Assembly (NCBI RefSeq): GCF_900142535.1
Contig: NZ_FRBE01000021.1
Location: 1 to 60,846 of the forward strand
Origin: Fibrobacter sp. UWEL
GTDB taxonomy: Bacteria > Fibrobacterota > Fibrobacteria > Fibrobacterales > Fibrobacteraceae
DNA: 60,846 nt
Reading direction: 5' to 3'
Of this stretch, positions 5,261-55,994 are shown one piece after another. The notes below the pieces were generated by a model. The model saw only the letters and a list, made by a program, of their open reading frames with translations. It made no database searches and was not told where the DNA came from. Every line of letters begins with the position of its first letter. Within the stretch, counting starts at the first letter, position 1. Position numbers and translations under genes: made by a program.

Positions 5261-5295
5261 TTAGACGAGAGACGAGAGGCGAGAGACGAGAGAAA
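5261..5295. repeat. degenerate 7-bp tandem repeat, locus A
   Basis: The stretch reads ttagacg-agagacg-agaggcg-agagacg-agagaaa: five units in strict 7-bp register, upstream of thrS. The units resemble those of the longer array at 36392-36482. Confidence 0.6.
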
Positions 5296-30349: not shown

Positions 30350-30350
30350 A

Positions 30351-30385
30351 GTTATGAGTTATGAATTATGAGTTACGAACTCATC
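30351..30385. repeat. degenerate 7-bp tandem repeat, locus B
   Basis: The stretch reads gttatga-gttatga-attatga-gttacga-actcatc: five units in 7-bp register between the terminator and the glgP stop. The ATGAGTT-type unit matches loci D and E beside the four-helix-bundle gene. Confidence 0.6.
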
Positions 30386-30396
30386 GCTCACTGCTC

Positions 30397-32868
30397 TTAC
30401 AACTTAATAGAACAAGCCTTAGCGTTCCAGATTTCCTTAGCGTACTGGTCGATGGTACGGTCAGAGCTGAACTTGCCCATGCGAGCTACGTTCAGGATAG
30501 CCATTTCTGCCCAGTGCTTCTTGTCCTGGTAAGCTTCTGCAACCTTCTTCTGCATGTCGACGTAGCTACGGAAGTCTGCGCAGAGCATGTACGGGTCGTG
30601 AGTCAGGAGCTTGTCGGCGATGTGCTTGAACAGGTCCGGACGATCCGGGCTGAAGAAGCCAGAGCCGATCAGGTCGATCACGCGACGGAGATCGTCGTCG
30701 GATTCGTAGAAGTCGCGAGGACGGTAGCCCTTAGCCAAGAGGTCGGTAACTTCTTCAACGGTGAGACCGAAGATGAAGATGTTTTCGTCACCCACTTCTT
30801 CCTTCATTTCCACGTTAGCGCCATCGAGAGTACCGATGGTGAGAGCGCCGTTGAGGGCGAACTTCATGTTACCGGTACCAGAAGCTTCGGTACCTGCAGT
30901 GGAGATCTGTTCGGACAGGTCTGCTGCCGGGATGATCTTTTCTGCGAAGGAAACGCGGTAGTTTTCCAGGAAGACCATCTTCAGCTTGCCCTTGCATGCG
31001 GGATCAGCGTCGATGATTGCTGCCACTGCGTTAGCCAGGCGGATGATCTGCTTAGCCATCCAGTAACCAGGAGCGGACTTACCACCGATCATGATGGTAC
31101 GGGGCATGATTTCCTTGCCATCCTTGATCTGGATGTACAGGTGGATAGCGTGGAGGATGTTCAGGAGCTGGCGCTTGTATTCGTGAATACGCTTGACCTG
31201 CACGTCGAAGAACATGTTGGTGTCCAGTTCGACGCCCTGAGATTCCTTCAGGTACTTGGCCAGACGTTCCTTGTTCTGCTTCTTCACGTCCATGAATGCC
31301 TTCTGGAACTTAGCATCCTTGGCGAACTTTTCCAGCTGACGCAGATCGTCCAGATCCTTGACCCAGGATTCACCGATCTTGCTGGTAACCAGTTCGGACA
31401 TAGCCGGGTTAGCCTTGCGGACCCAGCGACGAGGTGTGACGCCGTTAGTCTTGTTGTTGAACTTTTCAGGCCACAGTTCGTAGAAGTCCTTGAACAGGGT
31501 GGTCTTGAGAAGGTCGGAGTGCAGAGCTGCCACACCGTTCACAGCGTAGGAACCTACGATGGAGAGGTATGCCATGCGGATCATCTTGCAGCCACCTTCT
31601 TCGATGAGGCTCATGCGACCGAGACGAGCGTTGTCGCCGGGCCACTTGAGGGAAACCATGCGCAGGAAGCGAGCATTGATTTCGAAGATGATCTGGAGAT
31701 GACGGGGGAGGAGCTTTTCGAAGAGGCTAACAGGCCACTTTTCGAGAGCTTCCGGCATCAAGGTGTGGTTGGTGTATGCAAAAGTCTTGGTAACGATTTC
31801 CCATGCATCGTCCCATTCCAGGTTTTCTTCGTCAAGAAGAATGCGCATCATTTCGGCGATAGAGATTGCCGGATGAGTGTCGTTCAGCTGGATGGCGACC
31901 TTTTCGGGGAAGACCTTCCAATCATTGTTGTGGGTCTTCTTGAAACGGTTGATGATGTCCTGCAGAGATGCAGAGCACAGGAAGTACTGCTGCTTCAGGC
32001 GCAGTTCCTTACCGTTCATGGAGGAGTCGTTGGGGTAGAGAACCTTGGAGATGGTTTCAGAAAGTTCCATGTCCTGCACAGCGGCGATGTAGTCACCGTT
32101 GTTGAAGTAGGAGAGGCCGAAGTCGTCGGTGGACTTGGCGCTCCAGAGGCGCAGGTTGTTCACGGTGTTGTTTTTGTAACCCGGAATCGGAGTATCGTAG
32201 GGGAGAGCCAGGACGTAGTCCTTGGTTTCCCAACGGTTGCGGAGCTTGCCCTTTTCGTCGGTCCAGCTTACAACGTAGCCGAAGAAGGGAACCTTGATTG
32301 CGTTTGCGGGGCGAGCGATTTCCCACGGGTTGGGGAGACGGAGCCAGTTATCCGGCTGTTCTTCCTGTTCGCCGTTCACGATCTTCTGGCTGAACATACC
32401 GTATTCGTAACGGATACCCATACCGGTTGCGGGAAGTTCCAGAGTTGCCATGGAATCCAGGAAGCAAGCTGCCAGACGGCCAAGACCGCCGTTGCCCAGA
32501 CCTGCGTCCACTTCCTGTTCGCGAAGTTCGTCCAGAGTCATGCCCACTTCGTCCAGAGCTTCGGTCACAGCACCTTCAACGTCCAGGTTCAGGACGGAGT
32601 TACCGAGGGTACGGCCGATGAGGAATTCCAGGGACAGGTAATAGACGCGCTTCACGTCCTTTTCGTAGTAAGTTTCCTGAGTCTTGATCCAGCGGTCAAC
32701 CAGACGGTCACGAACTGCGTAAGCAACGGCCAGGAACTTTTCGTGGTCGGTCACAGTGTCCATGCTGCGGGCGAGGGTGTGGTTGATGTGGTCGGTAAAT
32801 GCCTTGCGGAATGCTTCTGCATCGGTACCGAGCACGGGGGCTGCTGTTTTCTTGGTAGTCTTTGCCAT
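30397..32868 (-). CDS. glgP: glycogen/alpha-glucan phosphorylase
   Basis: This 823-aa GT35 enzyme releases glucose-1-phosphate from alpha-1,4-glucan with phosphate and pyridoxal phosphate. Family landmarks run the whole length: VYYLSLEFLIGRTLGNSV near residue 80, GLGNGGLGRLAACFLDS, NDTHPAISIAEMMR, KTFAYTNHTLMPEALEKWP, TNGVTPRRW, VKRIHEYKRQLLN, and the cofactor-lysine motif EASGTGNMKFALNGALTIG. Length is normal. It is a monocistronic gene with a terminator behind it. It mobilises stored glycogen, which this genus accumulates. Confidence 0.97.
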   Translation of the reverse strand: MAKTTKKTAAPVLGTDAEAFRKAFTDHINHTLARSMDTVTDHEKFLAVAYAVRDRLVDRWIKTQETYYEKDVKRVYYLSLEFLIGRTLGNSVLNLDVEGAVTEALDEVGMTLDELREQEVDAGLGNGGLGRLAACFLDSMATLELPATGMGIRYEYGMFSQKIVNGEQEEQPDNWLRLPNPWEIARPANAIKVPFFGYVVSWTDEKGKLRNRWETKDYVLALPYDTPIPGYKNNTVNNLRLWSAKSTDDFGLSYFNNGDYIAAVQDMELSETISKVLYPNDSSMNGKELRLKQQYFLCSASLQDIINRFKKTHNNDWKVFPEKVAIQLNDTHPAISIAEMMRILLDEENLEWDDAWEIVTKTFAYTNHTLMPEALEKWPVSLFEKLLPRHLQIIFEINARFLRMVSLKWPGDNARLGRMSLIEEGGCKMIRMAYLSIVGSYAVNGVAALHSDLLKTTLFKDFYELWPEKFNNKTNGVTPRRWVRKANPAMSELVTSKIGESWVKDLDDLRQLEKFAKDAKFQKAFMDVKKQNKERLAKYLKESQGVELDTNMFFDVQVKRIHEYKRQLLNILHAIHLYIQIKDGKEIMPRTIMIGGKSAPGYWMAKQIIRLANAVAAIIDADPACKGKLKMVFLENYRVSFAEKIIPAADLSEQISTAGTEASGTGNMKFALNGALTIGTLDGANVEMKEEVGDENIFIFGLTVEEVTDLLAKGYRPRDFYESDDDLRRVIDLIGSGFFSPDRPDLFKHIADKLLTHDPYMLCADFRSYVDMQKKVAEAYQDKKHWAEMAILNVARMGKFSSDRTIDQYAKEIWNAKACSIKL

Positions 32869-36391: not shown

Positions 36392-36482
36392 GATTCTAGA
36401 GACTAGAGGCTGGAAATTAGAGATTAGAGACTAGAGGCTAGTGGCTAGTGGTTAGTGGCTAGAACCTAGTCCCTAAATCCTA
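36392..36482. repeat. degenerate 7-bp tandem repeat, locus C (13 units)
   Basis: Thirteen 7-bp units in perfect register: gattcta, gagacta, gaggctg, gaaatta, gagatta, gagacta, gaggcta, gtggcta, gtggtta, gtggcta, gaaccta, gtcccta, aatccta. The last unit runs into the stop codon of the GGDEF/EAL gene. The consensus is G(A/T)G(A/G)CTA. It fills the gap between two minus-strand genes. Confidence 0.8.
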
Positions 36483-38171
36483 ATACGGGTTTTCGCCGGT
36501 GAGACGCTTCTGGAAATCGTCGTGATTCAGGGGCTTGTCGAAAAGGAAGCCCTGAACGTTGTTGCAGTTCACTTCTTCCAGGAACTTGGCCTGGGCTTCG
36601 CTTTCCACGCCTTCGGCAATAACTTCCTTGTTCATTTCCTTGGCTAGGTTCACCACGTTCTTCACAACCACTTCGTCCATGGAGTTTTCCTTGCCGATGT
36701 TGTCCAGCAGGGACTTGTCCAGCTTGATGACGTTTACGTCAAAGTTCTTCAGGACGGTGAGGGTGGAATAACCGGTTCCAAAGTCATCGATGGAAACGGA
36801 AATGCCGTTCTGGCGCATGATGGTTACGAACCTCTGCATGGCCTTGTAATCGTCGTAGTCGGAAACTTCCGTCAGTTCCACTTCGATGAACTGGCTTTCC
36901 ACCTTGTGCTGCTTCATGACATTGAGGATGTCTTCGGCGAAGTTGGGATTCTTCAGGTGACGCTTGGAGAAATTGACGGAAATACGGACCGGAGGAATGC
37001 CTGCTTCCACCCACTGCTGGATGTCTCGGCAAACGGATTTGAATACGTAGAAGTCCAGCTGGCAGATGGAGCCTTCCTGTTCCAGGATAGGTACGAAATC
37101 CATAGGCGGGACGATAGTCTTATGACGGATCCAGCGGACCAGGGCTTCGGAACCGCACAACTGCTTGGTCCTGATGTTCACCTTGGGCTGGTAATGAACG
37201 ATAAATTCATGGTTCTGCAGGGCGTTGCGGAATTCGGTGGAGATTTCCCTACGGTGCATTGCCTGGATGTGCATTTCCGTGCTGAAATAAATCAGGTCGG
37301 AGGAACGCTGTTCCTTCGCTACGTTCAGGGCGATGGATGCGTTGTTCATCAATTCAGGAATGCCATCCTTGGGAGTGGCCGGATAGATTCCCATGCGGGC
37401 CTGGATCACGAATTCCACAGGCTTGGGACCCTGGGACAGTTTCACTTCGAACTTGGAGAAGCGATCGATGAATTTCTGCAGGTTGTCCTTCTTGACCAGC
37501 ACATAGAAGTTATCGCCACCCAGACGGCAGACGATTTCAAATTCTTCCAGGCTATTCTTGATGGCATTAGCGTAGAGCTTGATTGCTAGATCGCCAATGG
37601 GGCTAGAGAGGGACTTGTTAATATACTTGAAGTTTTTCAGGTTAATGAAAATGCCTGCGAAATCCTTCAGCATTCCACGGGCGGCAAGCATACCCATCTT
37701 GCGGGTGAGGGTAGGCTGGTTGTCCACCTTAGTCATGGGATCTGTGGACAAGGCCATTTCCATAAAGTCCATCAGACGGGCGCGACCACCCAGAACAAAG
37801 AAGTCGTTGGCCAGTAGACGGCAAATTTGCAGTTCCTGCTCGTTAAACTGGTGGTCTTTTTCGGGGTAGAACAGAATTGTAAAAGAGCCGTGTTCCTTAG
37901 TGGCGAATTGCTCCATGTGGGCTTCGTTATCATTAAGGACGGGGCATACGGACGGGTCCTGGAAGGGAACCTGGACGATTTCCTCGCCGTTGGGGGCATA
38001 TTCGGAGGTGGGTGCGTTCAAACTGGAGGCAAGACCTCCAATGTGTAATTCTTTTGCCAGGGGCGGGAATACTGCCTGCACTTTTGCAGGGAATGTCTTC
38101 ATGGAAGCATTGGGCTCAGAGAGTGCCTCCCTGAACTTGCAATACGCCTCGCCGATGTTTGAAAATAGCAT
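36480..38171 (-). CDS. GGDEF/EAL protein, probable c-di-GMP phosphodiesterase
   Basis: This 563-aa protein has an N-terminal GAF-like sensory part (residues ~1-150), a GGDEF domain with GGDNF in place of GGDEF, and an EAL domain. The EAL catalytic residues are intact: SEALVRW, the Asn in ISVNFS, ELTE, SIDDFGTGYS, IKLDKS and AEGVES. It should hydrolyse c-di-GMP, with the degenerate GGDEF possibly binding GTP as an effector. It counterbalances the cyclase at 24378. No membrane segments are seen. The ATG at 38171 lies 4 nt after aagagg; the longer open frame upstream has no ribosome site. The 303-nt gap to nuoB holds no gene. Confidence 0.85.
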   Translation of the reverse strand: MLFSNIGEAYCKFREALSEPNASMKTFPAKVQAVFPPLAKELHIGGLASSLNAPTSEYAPNGEEIVQVPFQDPSVCPVLNDNEAHMEQFATKEHGSFTILFYPEKDHQFNEQELQICRLLANDFFVLGGRARLMDFMEMALSTDPMTKVDNQPTLTRKMGMLAARGMLKDFAGIFINLKNFKYINKSLSSPIGDLAIKLYANAIKNSLEEFEIVCRLGGDNFYVLVKKDNLQKFIDRFSKFEVKLSQGPKPVEFVIQARMGIYPATPKDGIPELMNNASIALNVAKEQRSSDLIYFSTEMHIQAMHRREISTEFRNALQNHEFIVHYQPKVNIRTKQLCGSEALVRWIRHKTIVPPMDFVPILEQEGSICQLDFYVFKSVCRDIQQWVEAGIPPVRISVNFSKRHLKNPNFAEDILNVMKQHKVESQFIEVELTEVSDYDDYKAMQRFVTIMRQNGISVSIDDFGTGYSTLTVLKNFDVNVIKLDKSLLDNIGKENSMDEVVVKNVVNLAKEMNKEVIAEGVESEAQAKFLEEVNCNNVQGFLFDKPLNHDDFQKRLTGENPY

Positions 38172-51314: not shown

Positions 51315-52777
51315 TGAATACCATCATGATTCTTCTGCCGGTAATCCTGGTCGCCTTTGGCGCCCTCATCACTCTGGCAACAGAACCGTTCCTCAAGGAT
51401 GAAAACAAGCACACGGTTCTTCCCTGGATTGCTTCCGCTTTCTTCCTGGTAGCTATCGGTTCTTACTACCTGGTTTCTACCGATACCGCATTTGGCCTGT
51501 ACGCTATGGATCCGGTTCGCCGCCTCCTGGGCATTGCAGTCCTGTTCTGCGGTTTCCTGGGCATCGCTGGTGTCCAGTGGACCCTCGGTCATGAAAAGTT
51601 CAAGGGTGGCGAAGCTTACGCACTCTTGATGCTCGCTACCTGCGGCGCCGCTCTCATGACTCAGGCTGTGGATTACCTGGCCCTGTTCCTGGGTATGGAA
51701 CTGGCAAGTTTCCCCATTTACGCTCTGGTTGCTCTCCGTCGTAAGGACGTGAACGCTGGCGAAGGTGCTTTCAAGTACTTCGTTTCCGGCTCCATCTTCA
51801 GCGCCATCTTCCTCTACGGTGTGGCTCTGGTCTACGGTGCAACTGGTTCTACCCATTTCGGCGCCAAGATCCTGGAAGGTCGCGAATCTCTGTTCGCCAT
51901 CGGTTCCTTCCTCACCGTGATTGGCCTGCTCTTCAAGGCTGGTGCAGCTCCCGTCCACTTCTGGGTGGCCGACGTTTACACCGGCGCTTCCGTTGCAGTG
52001 ACCGGCTTCATGGCTGCCGTTGTTAAGGTGGGCGCTCTTGCCGCTCTCGCTTCTGTATGGCTTGGCACTTTGGCCGCAAAGACCGGCGTTGTTGCCTGGA
52101 ACCTTGCTGAACCCGCAACCTTCGGCGCACAGCCCAAGGCTCTGTACTACGTGGTCATCATCGTCTCCCTGCTTTCCATGGTCTACGGTGCTTTCGGTGG
52201 CTTGGCTCAGAAGTCCATCCGCCGTATCCTGGCATACTCCGCAGTGATGAACGCTGGCTTCATCGTTATCGGCCTCCTGCTCCCCGCATTCGTGGAAAAG
52301 GGCTCCGTCCAGATGAGCTCCATGTTCTACTTCCTGCTGACCTACGCAATCGGTTCCGCTGGCGCCCTCACTGGTGTTGCCTACCTGGCAGGCCGTGACG
52401 ACCGCAACGAAACTCTGGACGATCTCCGCGGCCGTGGTCGCAAGCGCCCCTTCGTTGCCCTGGGTACCGCAGTTTGCTTGGCAAGCCTCGCTGGCCTTCC
52501 GCCTGCAGCTGGCTTCCTGGCCAAGTTCTCCCTGTTCTCCGAAGCAATGGCTGGTGGTCTCGGCTGGCTCGCCGCTGTAGCATTCGCCCTGTCCCTGGTG
52601 GCAGCCGTCTACTACCTCCGCGTGGCCTTCGTCCTCTTTGCCCCCGCTAAGTGCGAATGTGAAATCAAGTGCTGCTGCGCCAAGAGCGCACCCTTCAGCT
52701 ATCTGCTGAAGTTCGGCGTGGCTGTTGCTGCTCTGGTGCTCCTGGCCCTGGGCGTCATGCCCAGCGTAGCACTGTAA
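51314..52777 (+). CDS. nuoN: NADH-quinone oxidoreductase subunit N with Cys-rich loop
   Basis: This 487-aa antiporter-like subunit has about 14 membrane helices with the family's LFLGMELASFPIYALVALR, FKAGAAPVHFWVADVYTGA and GLPPAAGFLAKF. Just before the last helix is a loop with five cysteines in nine residues (447, 449, 453, 454, 455; KCECEIKCCCAK), which is not a feature of ordinary NuoN. It is the last gene of the operon; a terminator within a 152-bp repeat follows at 52904-52939. Confidence 0.94.
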   Translation: MNTIMILLPVILVAFGALITLATEPFLKDENKHTVLPWIASAFFLVAIGSYYLVSTDTAFGLYAMDPVRRLLGIAVLFCGFLGIAGVQWTLGHEKFKGGEAYALLMLATCGAALMTQAVDYLALFLGMELASFPIYALVALRRKDVNAGEGAFKYFVSGSIFSAIFLYGVALVYGATGSTHFGAKILEGRESLFAIGSFLTVIGLLFKAGAAPVHFWVADVYTGASVAVTGFMAAVVKVGALAALASVWLGTLAAKTGVVAWNLAEPATFGAQPKALYYVVIIVSLLSMVYGAFGGLAQKSIRRILAYSAVMNAGFIVIGLLLPAFVEKGSVQMSSMFYFLLTYAIGSAGALTGVAYLAGRDDRNETLDDLRGRGRKRPFVALGTAVCLASLAGLPPAAGFLAKFSLFSEAMAGGLGWLAAVAFALSLVAAVYYLRVAFVLFAPAKCECEIKCCCAKSAPFSYLLKFGVAVAALVLLALGVMPSVAL

Positions 52778-52787
52778 TTCCCCGAGA

Positions 52788-52939
52788 GTCATCCTGAGCG
52801 GAGCACCGAAGGTTCCCCGAGTGTCATCCTGAGCGGAGCACCTAAGGTGCGAAGTCGAAGGATCTAGGATCCCGTCAGGATCGATAAGCTCGTAATTAAG
52901 AAGAACACCCTGTAGGTTTAAGCCTGCGGGGTGTTTTTT
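52788..52939 (+). repeat. 152-bp direct repeat, copy 1
   Basis: It is nearly identical to 53903-54054; I count three mismatches in 152 positions. Each copy holds two internal copies of gtcatcctgagcggagcacc, then gaagtcgaaggatct and an intrinsic terminator. The pair brackets the four-helix-bundle gene and its neighbour. The gtcatcctgagc...gaaggatct string is, to my knowledge, a widespread intergenic repeat. Confidence 0.85.
52904..52939 (+). terminator. terminator of the nuo operon (inside repeat copy 1)
   Basis: aacaccc-t-gtagg pairs with cctgc-g-gggtgtt around tttaag, followed by a T-run. Confidence 0.8.
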
Positions 52940-53074
52940 GTTTAGACATTTTTTAGACAAAATCTTTTTTACAAAGAAATTTCGTTCAAACGGCCTCATT
53001 ACAACGTGTATAGTAAAGAATAGGGGAGTTTGCCTATTCCGCAGGGCAATTTAGCCCAGAATAAACGATTATTA

Positions 53075-53095
53075 GTTACGAGATATGAGTTATGA
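53075..53095. repeat. degenerate 7-bp tandem repeat, locus D
   Basis: gttacga-gatatga-gttatga, three units in 7-bp register. The third unit contains the start codon of the four-helix-bundle gene. The unit is the same as locus B and the reverse complement of locus E. Confidence 0.6.
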
Positions 53096-53475
53096 GGAAT
53101 AGCGTATTGAGGGATAAAGGTTTTGCTTTCGCTATCAGGGTCGTTAGACTCTATGGTTTTCTTACCAAAGAGAAATGTGAATTCATTTTATCTAAACAAA
53201 TACTCAGAAGCGGAACAAGCATAGGTGCGAATGTTACGGAAGCGTCGTACGCGCAAAGTCGTCCAGATTTCTTTGCGAAAATAGGAATAGCCAAAAAAGA
53301 AGCTGCAGAAACCTTGTATTGGCTTGAATTGCTAAAAGAAACAGATTACATAAACGCTAGGCAATACGAATCAATGTATGAGGATTGCAATGAACTACTG
53401 AAAATGTTGGTTTCCATTTCCAAGAGAAACAACGCTAAAAATGACAACTCGTCATTCATAACTCATCATTCGTAA
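53092..53475 (+). CDS. four-helix-bundle protein (23S rRNA intervening-sequence type)
   Basis: This 127-aa protein of the TIGR02436 family shows the family's RVVRLYGFL, QILRSGTSIGANVTEA, DFFAKIGIAKKEAAETLYWLELL and CNELLKMLVSISK. Such proteins are encoded in intervening sequences of some 23S rRNA genes and, more often, as isolated genes; they are related to the accessory protein of diversity-generating retroelements. Here the gene is not in rRNA. Its first and last codons lie within heptamer repeat arrays of opposite orientation, so the last eight residues (SSFITHHS) are repeat-encoded. The whole block lies between 152-bp direct repeats, which suggests it arrived as a unit. Confidence 0.85.
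   Translation: MRNSVLRDKGFAFAIRVVRLYGFLTKEKCEFILSKQILRSGTSIGANVTEASYAQSRPDFFAKIGIAKKEAAETLYWLELLKETDYINARQYESMYEDCNELLKMLVSISKRNNAKNDNSSFITHHS
53446..53473. repeat. degenerate 7-bp tandem repeat, locus E
   Basis: aactcgt-cattcat-aactcat-cattcgt, four units in 7-bp register covering the end of the four-helix-bundle gene. Reverse-complemented, the units read ATGAGTT/ACGAATG, so they are inverted relative to locus D. Confidence 0.6.
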
Positions 53476-53528
53476 TTGATATCAGCCTTGCGGATGAAAA
53501 TGTTGAGGCAGCCGTTGGCATTATTACC

Positions 53529-53873
53529 ATGAAATACGCCTTCAAGGCTGGGAAGTATGGTAGGATGCTCCCGATGATTGAGGAAAGGCTGAAGACCATC
53601 AGCATGAGTGATTGCGCAACCCTTATCAGTAAAATTGAGTTATATTTAGGTGAGTACGTAACTCGCACATCATTAAAGAGGTTGAAGATGGCATTCCAGA
53701 GTATTGGTCAAAGGCTTGGCTTCGTCAGCGCAGGCGATGTGCGTCGCGCCGAGGAAAAGGAAGTTCGTAGCCTCAGGGCGAAAAATGCAAGGAAGGATGC
53801 GAAAATAGCCTCACTGACTGCAGAAAATGCTGCTCTTAAGGCGCAACTTAAAGCCGCCCTTGCCACTAAGTAA
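53529..53873 (+). CDS. hypothetical protein, probably 5'-truncated
   Basis: A 114-aa frame from the first ATG. The frame is open further upstream to 53445, and the part from 53478 reads like protein (DISLADENVEAAVGIIT) with no start codon and no ribosome site before the ATG. The original N-terminus therefore seems to be missing, with the break at the edge of heptamer array E. The C-terminal third is an Ala/Lys/Glu coiled coil (LRAKNARKDAKIASLTAEN). No family is recognised. It is probably a remnant of a gene disrupted when the four-helix-bundle block arrived. Confidence 0.4.
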   Translation: MKYAFKAGKYGRMLPMIEERLKTISMSDCATLISKIELYLGEYVTRTSLKRLKMAFQSIGQRLGFVSAGDVRRAEEKEVRSLRAKNARKDAKIASLTAENAALKAQLKAALATK

Positions 53874-53902
53874 CCGCTAGCCTTTCGTCATCTAACGTCA
53901 TC

Positions 53903-54054
53903 GTCATCCTGAGCGGAGCACCTAAGGTTCCCCGAGTGTCATCCTGAGCGGAGCACCGAAGGTGCGAAGTCGAAGGATCTAGGATCCCGTCAGGATCGAT
54001 AAGCTCGTAATTAAGACGAACACCCTGTAGGTTTAAGCCTGCGGGGTGTTTTTT
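53903..54054 (+). repeat. 152-bp direct repeat, copy 2
   Basis: Second copy of the element at 52788-52939, in the same orientation. The g/t variants in 'cc(g/t)aagg' are swapped between the two internal sub-repeats, and one further a/c difference lies in aaga(a/c)gaac. Confidence 0.85.
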
Positions 54055-54055
54055 T
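54019..54055 (+). terminator. intrinsic terminator (inside repeat copy 2)
   Basis: Same hairpin as at 52904-52939, followed by seven Ts. The 139-nt gap to the next gene is AT-rich. Confidence 0.75.
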
Positions 54056-54150
54056 GTGCATGAGATTTGTGTTTTTTTTGCATTTTAGCATATTTGCTAC
54101 AAAAAAACTTACGAATTGAATAGAAAAACCCTTTAATATGGGGTAGGACG

Positions 54151-54174
54151 TTTCTAAATTTTAACCCGTATTTT
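54151..54174 (+). promoter_or_regulatory. leader block shared by the two duplicated secreted-protein genes
   Basis: TTTCTAAATT-N3-A-N-CCGTATTTT occurs 44 nt before the 54195 gene and, with identical internal spacing, at 56248-56271 before the 56299 gene. It is probably part of a promoter or 5' UTR retained after duplication. Confidence 0.35.
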
Positions 54175-54194
54175 TTTGAGAAGGAACTTTTCTA

Positions 54195-55994
54195 ATGAAA
54201 AAGACTTTTTTTGCAGTTGCACTGGCAGGGATATGCGCTGTTGGGGCGAATGCTGCTTTGAATAAGGCTGATAATGGCTGTTACCAGATAGGTGATTATA
54301 CCGCATTGAAGGAATTCGCTACCAAGGTGAACGGCGGCGAAACTGACGCTTGCGGTCAGGTGACTGGAAATATTGATGCTACTGCATCTAAGACAGCAGC
54401 TACCGCCTGGACTCCTATTATGGGCTTTACGGGTTATTTTGAAGGCAATGGAAAAACTATTTCCAATTTGTCTTTCACTGGAAATAGTTCCGATAACGTT
54501 GGCCTTTTTGGTTCCGTTGCAGGTGGTGCTGTTATAAGAAACGTTATACTTGGTAGTGCAAGTATCGTTGCTCAAAGTAGTGTGGGTGGTATTGTTGGTG
54601 ATGTCACTGGAACCGGAGTTGTTATTGATGGTTGCGGAGTGGACGATAAAAGCTCCATTAAGGGTTATAAAAATACCGGAGGGCTTGTTGGTAGCATTGC
54701 TACTGGTGCTCAGCTGATTGTTGCTAATAGTTATAATGCTGGTACGATTGGTGCGAGTAAGTCCGGAGGATCTGATAAAAACGGCTTGATTGGATTTGCA
54801 AATTCAGGTTCTTCTGTAGCGCTCATTAACTGTTACATCTCTGCAGAGAGCATTAAGGACAATCCTGTTGGAAATAAAGAAAATGGAGCGACGTTCTCTG
54901 TGACTGATGTGGGATGTGTCAAATGGCTGTCTTGGGGTGTTGTATCTATGGAAACAAGGTGTACGGCTAAAATTTCAGGTGTTACCGAATATAATGGTAC
55001 GAATGCAGCAACTGCATATAACACGAATGTTGCCAATTCCGATTACCAGGCTTCTCTCCTTGCCAAGGAACTTGCGGTTAATTCCAGTGCAATTCCGAAT
55101 GTTTCTGGCGTAACCATCTCTAACGAAGAAAGTAAGCTTGTCGCAACTCTCAATGATGCGGCTACCACACTTTCCATCCCCCAGGATATTAAGGTGAATG
55201 AAGTTCGTCTTGATCGTTCCTTTACTAAAGACGTCTATTCCACTATCATGCTTCCTTTTAGCGTTGCTGTTACTAGTGTTACGGGTGCAACCGAATTTGC
55301 AACATTTACTGGCGTAACCAAAAATGCAGAGGAAAATGCTTATACAGCCGTTGAAGGTACTAGGGTAAATGGTGATCTTGCTGCATATACTCCGTATCTG
55401 CTGAAAACTTCTGGTACCACTTTGACTGTTTCTGGTGCAGTAACCTTGAAGGCTAATCCCGCCAACACCACAACCACAGTCAATAACTGGTCTTTCATCG
55501 GAACCACCGCCAAGAAACGCTGGCAGAATCAATGTGAAGCAGATGCTAGCAAGTGTGAAAATGCTGATGAAATCGGTAATGTTTACGGTTTTTCTGGTTC
55601 TGAAGTGGGTGACATTCATGTTGGTAATTTTGTAAAGGTGGGCAATAAGGTTGCTATTCGTCCTATGCGCGCTTACCTTATGTATACAGGTTCCGAAAAC
55701 CTTCCTGTCGCAAAGGGCAAGCCTGCTGCACCGGGAATGGCTATGGCTGCTGCTGTAGAATCTGTACCCACTGTTATTCTTCCGGATACCATGAAGGTTA
55801 TCATTGTGGATCCTGTGGTTGAAGATCCTGAAGAAGACGTTCCCACCGAAGGTCCTTTGGCTCTGGATCCCATCAAGGCTCCTGCTGCAGCTTTCAAGGC
55901 TGACCGCTGGTACGATATTACTGGTCGTAATCTGAATAAGCCTAAGGCTCAGGGTGCTTACATCAACAACCGTACGACCGTCATCGTCAAGTAA
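54195..55994 (+). CDS. exported GLUG-type protein with shared module and C-terminal tail (copy 1)
   Basis: This 599-aa protein has a signal peptide (VALAGICAVGANA). The N-terminal beta-helical part (residues ~27-220) starts NGCYQIGDYTALKEFATKV and has GLUG-type repeats (VGLFGSVAGG, GGIVGDV, GGLVGSI). A module at ~335-500 has RSFTKDVYSTIMLPFSV, YTPYLLKTSG, WSFIGTTAKKRWQ, VYGFSGS and FVKVGNKVAIRPMRAYLMY. An acidic Pro/Glu hinge follows, then a C-terminal tail WYDITGRNLNKPKAQGAY...VIVK, similar to type IX secretion signals. It is followed 11 nt later by a 51-aa peptide gene. A surface location is likely; function is unknown. Confidence 0.75.
   Translation: MKKTFFAVALAGICAVGANAALNKADNGCYQIGDYTALKEFATKVNGGETDACGQVTGNIDATASKTAATAWTPIMGFTGYFEGNGKTISNLSFTGNSSDNVGLFGSVAGGAVIRNVILGSASIVAQSSVGGIVGDVTGTGVVIDGCGVDDKSSIKGYKNTGGLVGSIATGAQLIVANSYNAGTIGASKSGGSDKNGLIGFANSGSSVALINCYISAESIKDNPVGNKENGATFSVTDVGCVKWLSWGVVSMETRCTAKISGVTEYNGTNAATAYNTNVANSDYQASLLAKELAVNSSAIPNVSGVTISNEESKLVATLNDAATTLSIPQDIKVNEVRLDRSFTKDVYSTIMLPFSVAVTSVTGATEFATFTGVTKNAEENAYTAVEGTRVNGDLAAYTPYLLKTSGTTLTVSGAVTLKANPANTTTTVNNWSFIGTTAKKRWQNQCEADASKCENADEIGNVYGFSGSEVGDIHVGNFVKVGNKVAIRPMRAYLMYTGSENLPVAKGKPAAPGMAMAAAVESVPTVILPDTMKVIIVDPVVEDPEEDVPTEGPLALDPIKAPAAAFKADRWYDITGRNLNKPKAQGAYINNRTTVIVK

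Follow-up and report, generated by a model that had tools for sequence, protein, structure and literature searches.

Intervening sequences (IVSs) of 23S rRNA that carry an S23 gene have already been called selfish elements. The related four-helix-bundle protein bAvd (PF22296), which belongs to diversity-generating retroelements, is pentameric. In REPIN/RAYT systems, the RAYT protein is a Y1 (HUH) transposase and the REP sequences are fixed palindromes. The Coxiella 23S IVS contains an S23 open reading frame, a 28-bp terminal stem and three to four tandem GACAGAT heptamers just 5′ of the ATG; it is cut out by RNase III, and its S23p protein is reported to be probably not expressed in vivo (PMC4990558). 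Dispersed intergenic (GGGANTN)n heptamers form 70–75 convergent inverted pairs per Xanthomonas genome, mostly of four units, and Nostoc carries GGGGA(T/C)T repeats; the portion of that report dealing with these heptamers finds no general association with mobile elements (PMC4692102). Beggiatoaceae have intergenic TAACTGA repeats (PMC4679880). The relevant portions of these two papers do not connect the dispersed heptamers with S23 genes. The cited account of TRAP (trp RNA-binding attenuation protein) describes a ring of 11 subunits for 11 evenly spaced (G/U)AG triplets in RNA (PMC4027176).

We analyzed a stretch of 60,846 nucleotides from Fibrobacter sp. UWEL, here called the window, and the small gene within it that belongs to the 23S rRNA IVP/S23 family (Table 1). 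In profile searches, its protein matches PF05635 with an E-value of 2.8e-28 (98.7 bits; curated cut-off 33.8) and TIGR02436 with 107 bits (curated cut-off 24). A solved structure with five chains, 2RLD, is a relative (E 4e-37), while an AlphaFold model made from the single sequence was poor (mean pLDDT 60) and was discarded. The gene is located in a Transposase_31 gene beside nuoN, not in a 23S rRNA gene, and no Rfam family matches above its gathering score within positions 52500–54200 of the window.

Table 1. Coordinates of the S23/IVP cassette, its surroundings and the gene-less arrays in the window
Feature	Position	Strand	Remark
Whole S23/IVP cassette, ~417 bp	53060..53476	+	Ends set against the intact paralog of the interrupted gene
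Four-helix-bundle gene, 127 aa	53092..53475	+	PF05635 / TIGR02436 (23S rRNA IVP / S23 family)
Left heptamer array, TAGTTAC GAGATAT GAGTTAT GAGGAAT	53070..53099	+	Overlaps start codon
Right heptamer array, reverse complement of left type	53445..53480	-	Overlaps last codons and stop
Promoter/5′ untranslated region of interrupted host gene	52966..53059	+	95% identity to that of the paralog
Surviving 3′ part of Transposase_31 (PF04754) host gene, ~codons 171–308	53477..53873	+	83% DNA identity to the paralog
Inverted heptamer arrays without gene, AGTTATG.. then directly ACTCATCGCTCACTGCTC	30350..30400		Same type as window arms
Gene-less array CTAGAGA/CTAGTGG, then inverted CCTAGTCCCTAAATCCTAA	36396..36486		
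Gene-less GACGAGA heptamer array	5263..5293		Word of lysS-lolC IVP cassettes in other Fibrobacter genomes

The ATG at 53092 lies inside the degenerate left array, and the right array (about 53445–53480; AACTCGT CATTCAT AACTCAT CATTCGT AATTGAT) coincides with the last ~10 codons (..NSSFITHHS). The preliminary description had reported this arrangement together with the repeat word ATGAGTT; the positions of the arrays hold, but the word is not fixed, each element having its own 7- or 8-mer. The arms of the window copy are degenerate, as the 14-mer ATGAGTTATGAGTT, searched with at most one mismatch, matches only positions 30354–30374 and not the cassette. Even so, the two flanks match each other in inverted orientation better than expected by chance: only 1 of 5000 shuffles that preserve dinucleotides, and 1 of the 1633 segment pairs with the same spacing in the window, reach their score. 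Periodicity at lag 7 in the left arm was reached by 7 of 3000 shuffles and periodicity at lag 14 in the right arm by none of 3000, while lag 7 alone is weak in the right arm (299 of 3000 shuffles as high). When folded as RNA, the arms close a stem of ~25 bp around the gene (z = -2.6; 0 of 100 shuffles). Inverted heptamer arrays do frame the window gene, and the certainty of this comes from the wider pattern.

The IVP family is present in 40 of 61 Fibrobacter genomes. The window genome has two such genes, the second of which lies between dTDP-rhamnose genes and is flanked by inverted heptamers of another word (GGGTATA type). We collected 71 Fibrobacter loci, 45 of them with non-redundant flanks, and found that the best self-match falls at lag 7 or 14 in 43 of 45 left and 44 of 45 right flanks (lag-7 scores average 14.3 and 16.1, compared to 3.3–3.4 in shuffles). 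With right arms reverse-complemented, the left arm scores 31.2 against its own partner and 16.3 against the right arms of other elements (0 of 10,000 permutations), while comparison in direct orientation scores 14.8. These loci use at least a dozen repeat words.

The same anatomy extends across bacteria. Among 80 loci from Clostridia, Acidobacteria, Bacteroidota, candidate phyla, Planctomycetes, Proteobacteria and others, the inverted match is 35.8 within elements and 16.8 between them (0 of 5000 permutations); one gene in this set (L087) has no recognisable array. Since the 80 loci had been picked for similarity, we took a second set of 70 strong and weak IVP copies from 17 genomes (1–9 copies per genome), in which both arms carry an array in 47 cases, one arm in 17 and neither in 6 (null rate, 5–6% per side). 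The preliminary description had suggested examining the family in many genomes, where genes lacking flanking repeats would have spoken against its reading; in many phyla, IVP genes instead stand between heptamer arrays that point in opposite directions, and at least one detectable array accompanies 64 of the 70 genes in the 17 genomes.

Arrays also flank both sides of all 12 window-type genes found on named plasmids (eight cyanobacterial plasmids and those of Chlorohelix, Monoglobus, Bernardetia and Treponema), and the plasmid copy of Nostoc sp. C052 (L324) shows the arrangement in perfect form. Carriage by phages looks rare, since no canonical IVP was found in 50,697 phage records and viral contigs gave only four window-type loci. 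Four plasmid records (L321, L328, L330 and L327) hold window-type cassettes in gaps of defence gene clusters, these gaps being hsdS-hsdR (type I restriction), drmD-mmeI, DUF1156-Swt1 and cas2-cas1. In Xanthomonas codiaei, cassettes stand inside core metabolic operons, between accB and accC (L380) and between carA and carB (L151/L356).

Most arms have repeat units with a period of 7 and a minority with a period of 8, and this period is shared between both arms of an element: among 69 arm pairs, the periods are (7,7) in 61, (8,8) in 5 and (9,9) in 1, with 2 discordant pairs. The period tracks the protein tree, requiring 15 changes compared to 23.9 when shuffled (0 of 500, every shuffle needing at least 18). 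Elements of the main clade have in common only an AG dinucleotide (~0.9/0.9) and differ from one another at the remaining five positions of the repeat. The core of the window clade, taken together, is instead A-T-[TG]-N-N-N-A, although the window copy itself, unlike its clade, has TAG/GAG. On the gene strand, left arms are G-rich and right arms C-rich. The number of units per arm peaks at five (81 of 216 arms), with five or six units in 127 of the 216, and the solved relatives of the main clade (2GSC) and of the window protein (2RLD) each contain five chains, a count per crystal entry that is consistent with pentamers and goes only that far.

Similarity between repeat words climbs from 0.47 to 0.80 with protein similarity among elements at different sites (Mantel, 0 of 1000). 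The arms are therefore a property of the element rather than of the site where it lies. Both arms can also change in concert, as from GACGAGA to GACGAAA. The outer length of the cassette has a median of 451 bp (interquartile range 436–488), and the median dN/dS of 0.076 (56 pairs, which are non-independent) indicates that the protein is needed.

The window copy interrupts its host gene. An intact 308-aa paralog of that gene, elsewhere in the same genome (L336), is a Transposase_31 protein (PF04754, E 2.7e-17). With blastn, similarity to this locus ends at 53059 on the left and restarts at 53477 on the right, so that a cassette of ~417 bp stands in place of ~530 bp of the Transposase_31 gene. 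A relative at nuoN without the insert (G053) was dropped as an example of an empty site, because its contig ends nearby. Direct repeats of ~150 bp (52778–52930 and 53905–54055) bracket the interrupted gene and the cassette; they contain a nuoN-type terminator plus GTCATCCTGAGCGGAGC..AAGTCGAAGGATC, and several further copies of AAGTCGAAGGATC lie near the C7 paralog. In other Fibrobacter genomes, four cassettes (L056, L058, L064 and L068) are seemingly inside PD-(D/E)XK/Transposase_31-like genes, which are perhaps favoured and perhaps merely tolerant targets.

A second polymorphic site is the gap between lysS and lolC. These genes are 0–7 nt apart in 14 Fibrobacter genomes without a cassette, a decayed array without gene remains in three (G014, G044 and G046), and in further genomes cassettes of at least four IVP clades occupy the gap, each clade using a word of its own. 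No target-site duplication was identified, with none seen at this site, and no transposition event was seen directly. Small palindromes with centres GCGAAGC/GCTTCGC or GCGGAGC lie beside or inside the left array of six lysS-lolC cassettes (L012, L016, L018, L025, L026 and L032) and resemble a second class of tiny insertions.

IVP cassettes are scattered over many unrelated sites and, with few exceptions, are read in the same direction as the host genes. With neighbouring ORFs scored by composition, Fibrobacter neighbours are co-oriented with the IVP gene in a ratio of 45:0 downstream and 39:2 upstream (one of the two exceptions is a miscall), and the global ratios are 66:4 upstream and 59:8 downstream.

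Heptamer arrays also occur without a gene. In stretches of 400–460 kb sampled per Fibrobacter genome, from which array densities were taken, we found 1–14 heptamer arrays, compared to 0–2 per sampled genome at lags of 4, 5, 8, 10, 11 or 13. Several gene-less units consist of an array, 9 to 40 nt and an inverted array. The pair at 30350–30400 of the window has a unit similarity of 0.86 to the genome's own IVP arms, and the gene-less arrays of this genome resemble its own IVP arms (17 of 2000), while the corresponding comparison in G033 is not significant (229 of 2000). The CTAG-rich array at 36396–36486 has about ten units, followed by an inverted arm of three units. A Fibrobacter genome lacking IVP genes (G005) has 14 gene-less arrays per 400 kb, as rich as the window genome with 14 per 461 kb; thus, the gene is not required for gene-less arrays to persist.

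As judged from these comparisons of sequences, the gene is under selection, the arms are matched to the element, orthologous sites differ in whether they contain the cassette, and the cassette can replace host DNA. The preliminary description had seen in the gene and its repeats a symmetrical cassette that would fit a mobile unit using the repeats as ends, and had proposed comparing occupied and empty sites; that comparison, at lysS-lolC and between the window site and the intact paralog, bears the proposal out, the transposition step itself being what we infer. We consider it probable that the cassette is a mobile element of ~450 bp with one gene and two inverted arms, in which a pentameric S23 ring recognizes about five repeats per arm. 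Each subunit would bind a single repeat core, which in the main clade is NAG, and the arms would consequently be recognition sites as well as element ends. Because consecutive sites spaced 7 bp apart would not face the same side of a double helix, binding is best pictured with the repeats as single-stranded RNA or DNA that would be wrapped around the ring, by analogy with TRAP.

Several consequences would follow from such a mobile element. Binding to the left arm, which overlaps or just precedes the start codon, may also limit synthesis of the protein. The paired arms would form in RNA a stem like those at which RNase III cleaves 23S rRNA IVSs, and the IVSs would then be rRNA-resident copies of the same element. 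Gene-less array hairpins may be derivatives mobilized in trans or decayed remnants. The cassette contains no transposase, recombinase or other known catalytic domain, its sole gene being PF05635, and, as far as RVT_1 matches show, the element has no need for a resident reverse transcriptase; therefore, strand transfer would probably be carried out by host replication or repair, which is the weakest link in the proposal.

Other mechanisms could produce parts of this pattern. The cassette could move via RNA with a reverse transcriptase acting in trans, S23 then serving as bAvd does in diversity-generating retroelements. The two families are akin (a canonical IVP matches PF22296 at E 2e-8, which is below that family's cut-off), the arms fold as RNA, and the strong co-orientation with host transcripts suggests an RNA stage. 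However, reverse transcriptase (RVT_1) occurs in only 16 of the 61 Fibrobacter genomes, compared to 40 with IVP, and has no match in many near-complete genomes that bear IVP genes (G004, G009, G010, G025, G030, G033, G056 and G059). No reverse transcriptase is found among the ORFs around the window copy, and the RVT_1 matches of this genome are on other contigs. Further, bAvd genes come without inverted arrays; there were none at four true bAvd loci, three of which have a reverse-transcriptase motif in the same locus. We regard this retroelement route as unlikely.

Alternatively, the gene could be immobile and regulate itself by binding the arrays in the manner of TRAP, having spread by horizontal transfer and homologous recombination, with the gene-less arrays as its other targets. 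The position of the left array over the start codon in the window, and directly upstream of it elsewhere, fits such a regulator, as do the operon gaps, the co-orientation and the strong purifying selection. A regulator would nevertheless not need a matching inverted array 3′ of its gene, and we find it rather improbable given that the lysS-lolC gap has no cassette in some genomes and, in others, a cassette from one of at least four clades, that these clades also occur at unrelated sites, and that the window copy interrupts a gene. The arrays could even be passive, slippage-prone heptamers near these genes, with template switching at the inverted repeat homogenizing the two arms. Concerted change of units in both arms would agree with homogenization, and slippage is seen in the differing heptamer number of Coxiella strains (PMC4990558), but the special status of period 7 over other lags, the peak at five units, the tracking of protein phylogeny by word and period, and the AG core that stays fixed while the remaining positions vary make passive arrays very improbable.

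The proposed mobile element can be generalized, tentatively, to a pan-bacterial class of single-gene elements whose ends, in place of fixed terminal repeats, are arrays of about five regularly spaced repeats, with one repeat for each subunit of a pentameric S23 ring. At constant spacing, the word would drift and the two arms would come to match again; the 23S rRNA IVSs and the orphan heptamers of Xanthomonas and cyanobacteria would belong to this class. The X. codiaei cassette between accB and accC has (GGGANTN)n arms that match the published Xanthomonas repeats, and its protein matches 2GSC/XCC0516. If this generalization is true, a family annotated with no more than the name "23S rRNA intervening sequence" or "four helix bundle" protein would lie at the heart of a widespread, minimal kind of mobile element, and rRNA intervening sequences and the dispersed heptamer arrays of several phyla, both long familiar, would have one cause. 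It would also offer a simple test case of recognition by a ring protein, with repeat number equal to subunit number, and a mobile element without its own enzyme would raise the question of how so little moves.

Compared to known systems, the cassette combines familiar parts. It shares inverted repeats at its ends with classical transposons and insertion sequences, but not their transposase or recombinase. REPIN/RAYT and MITE systems likewise have a gene-bearing element and gene-less inverted-repeat hairpins in one genome; unlike REPIN/RAYT, the IVP cassette has a protein without a catalytic domain (no Y1 (HUH) transposase is found in the cassette, whose single gene is PF05635) and a repeat word of its own for each element. 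The related bAvd is tied to reverse transcriptase, and IVP cassettes are not. TRAP may be the closest functional parallel of the S23 ring, although its fold is unrelated, it is an 11-mer and not a 5-mer, its spacers are 2–3 nt as opposed to 4–5 nt, the binding by S23 is what we infer, and TRAP is not a mobile element.

The open-access literature searched describes the pieces, with no paper that joins the S23 gene, matched arrays and mobility, and what looks like a very small mobile element seems not to have been recognized as one before. Among the nearest relatives are the 23S rRNA IVSs of Coxiella and Leptospira, which like the cassettes have a protein of the same family, one ORF in a unit of ~430–450 nt and complementary ends that form a long stem. 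The IVSs, however, lie inside 23S rRNA helices, whereas the free-standing cassettes occupy operon gaps or genes and use many repeat words; none of the 359 IVP loci that we scanned contained 23S rRNA motifs. The Coxiella IVS would then read as one rRNA-resident member of the cassette class, and the free-standing form, with arrays matched to the ring, may deserve a class of its own.
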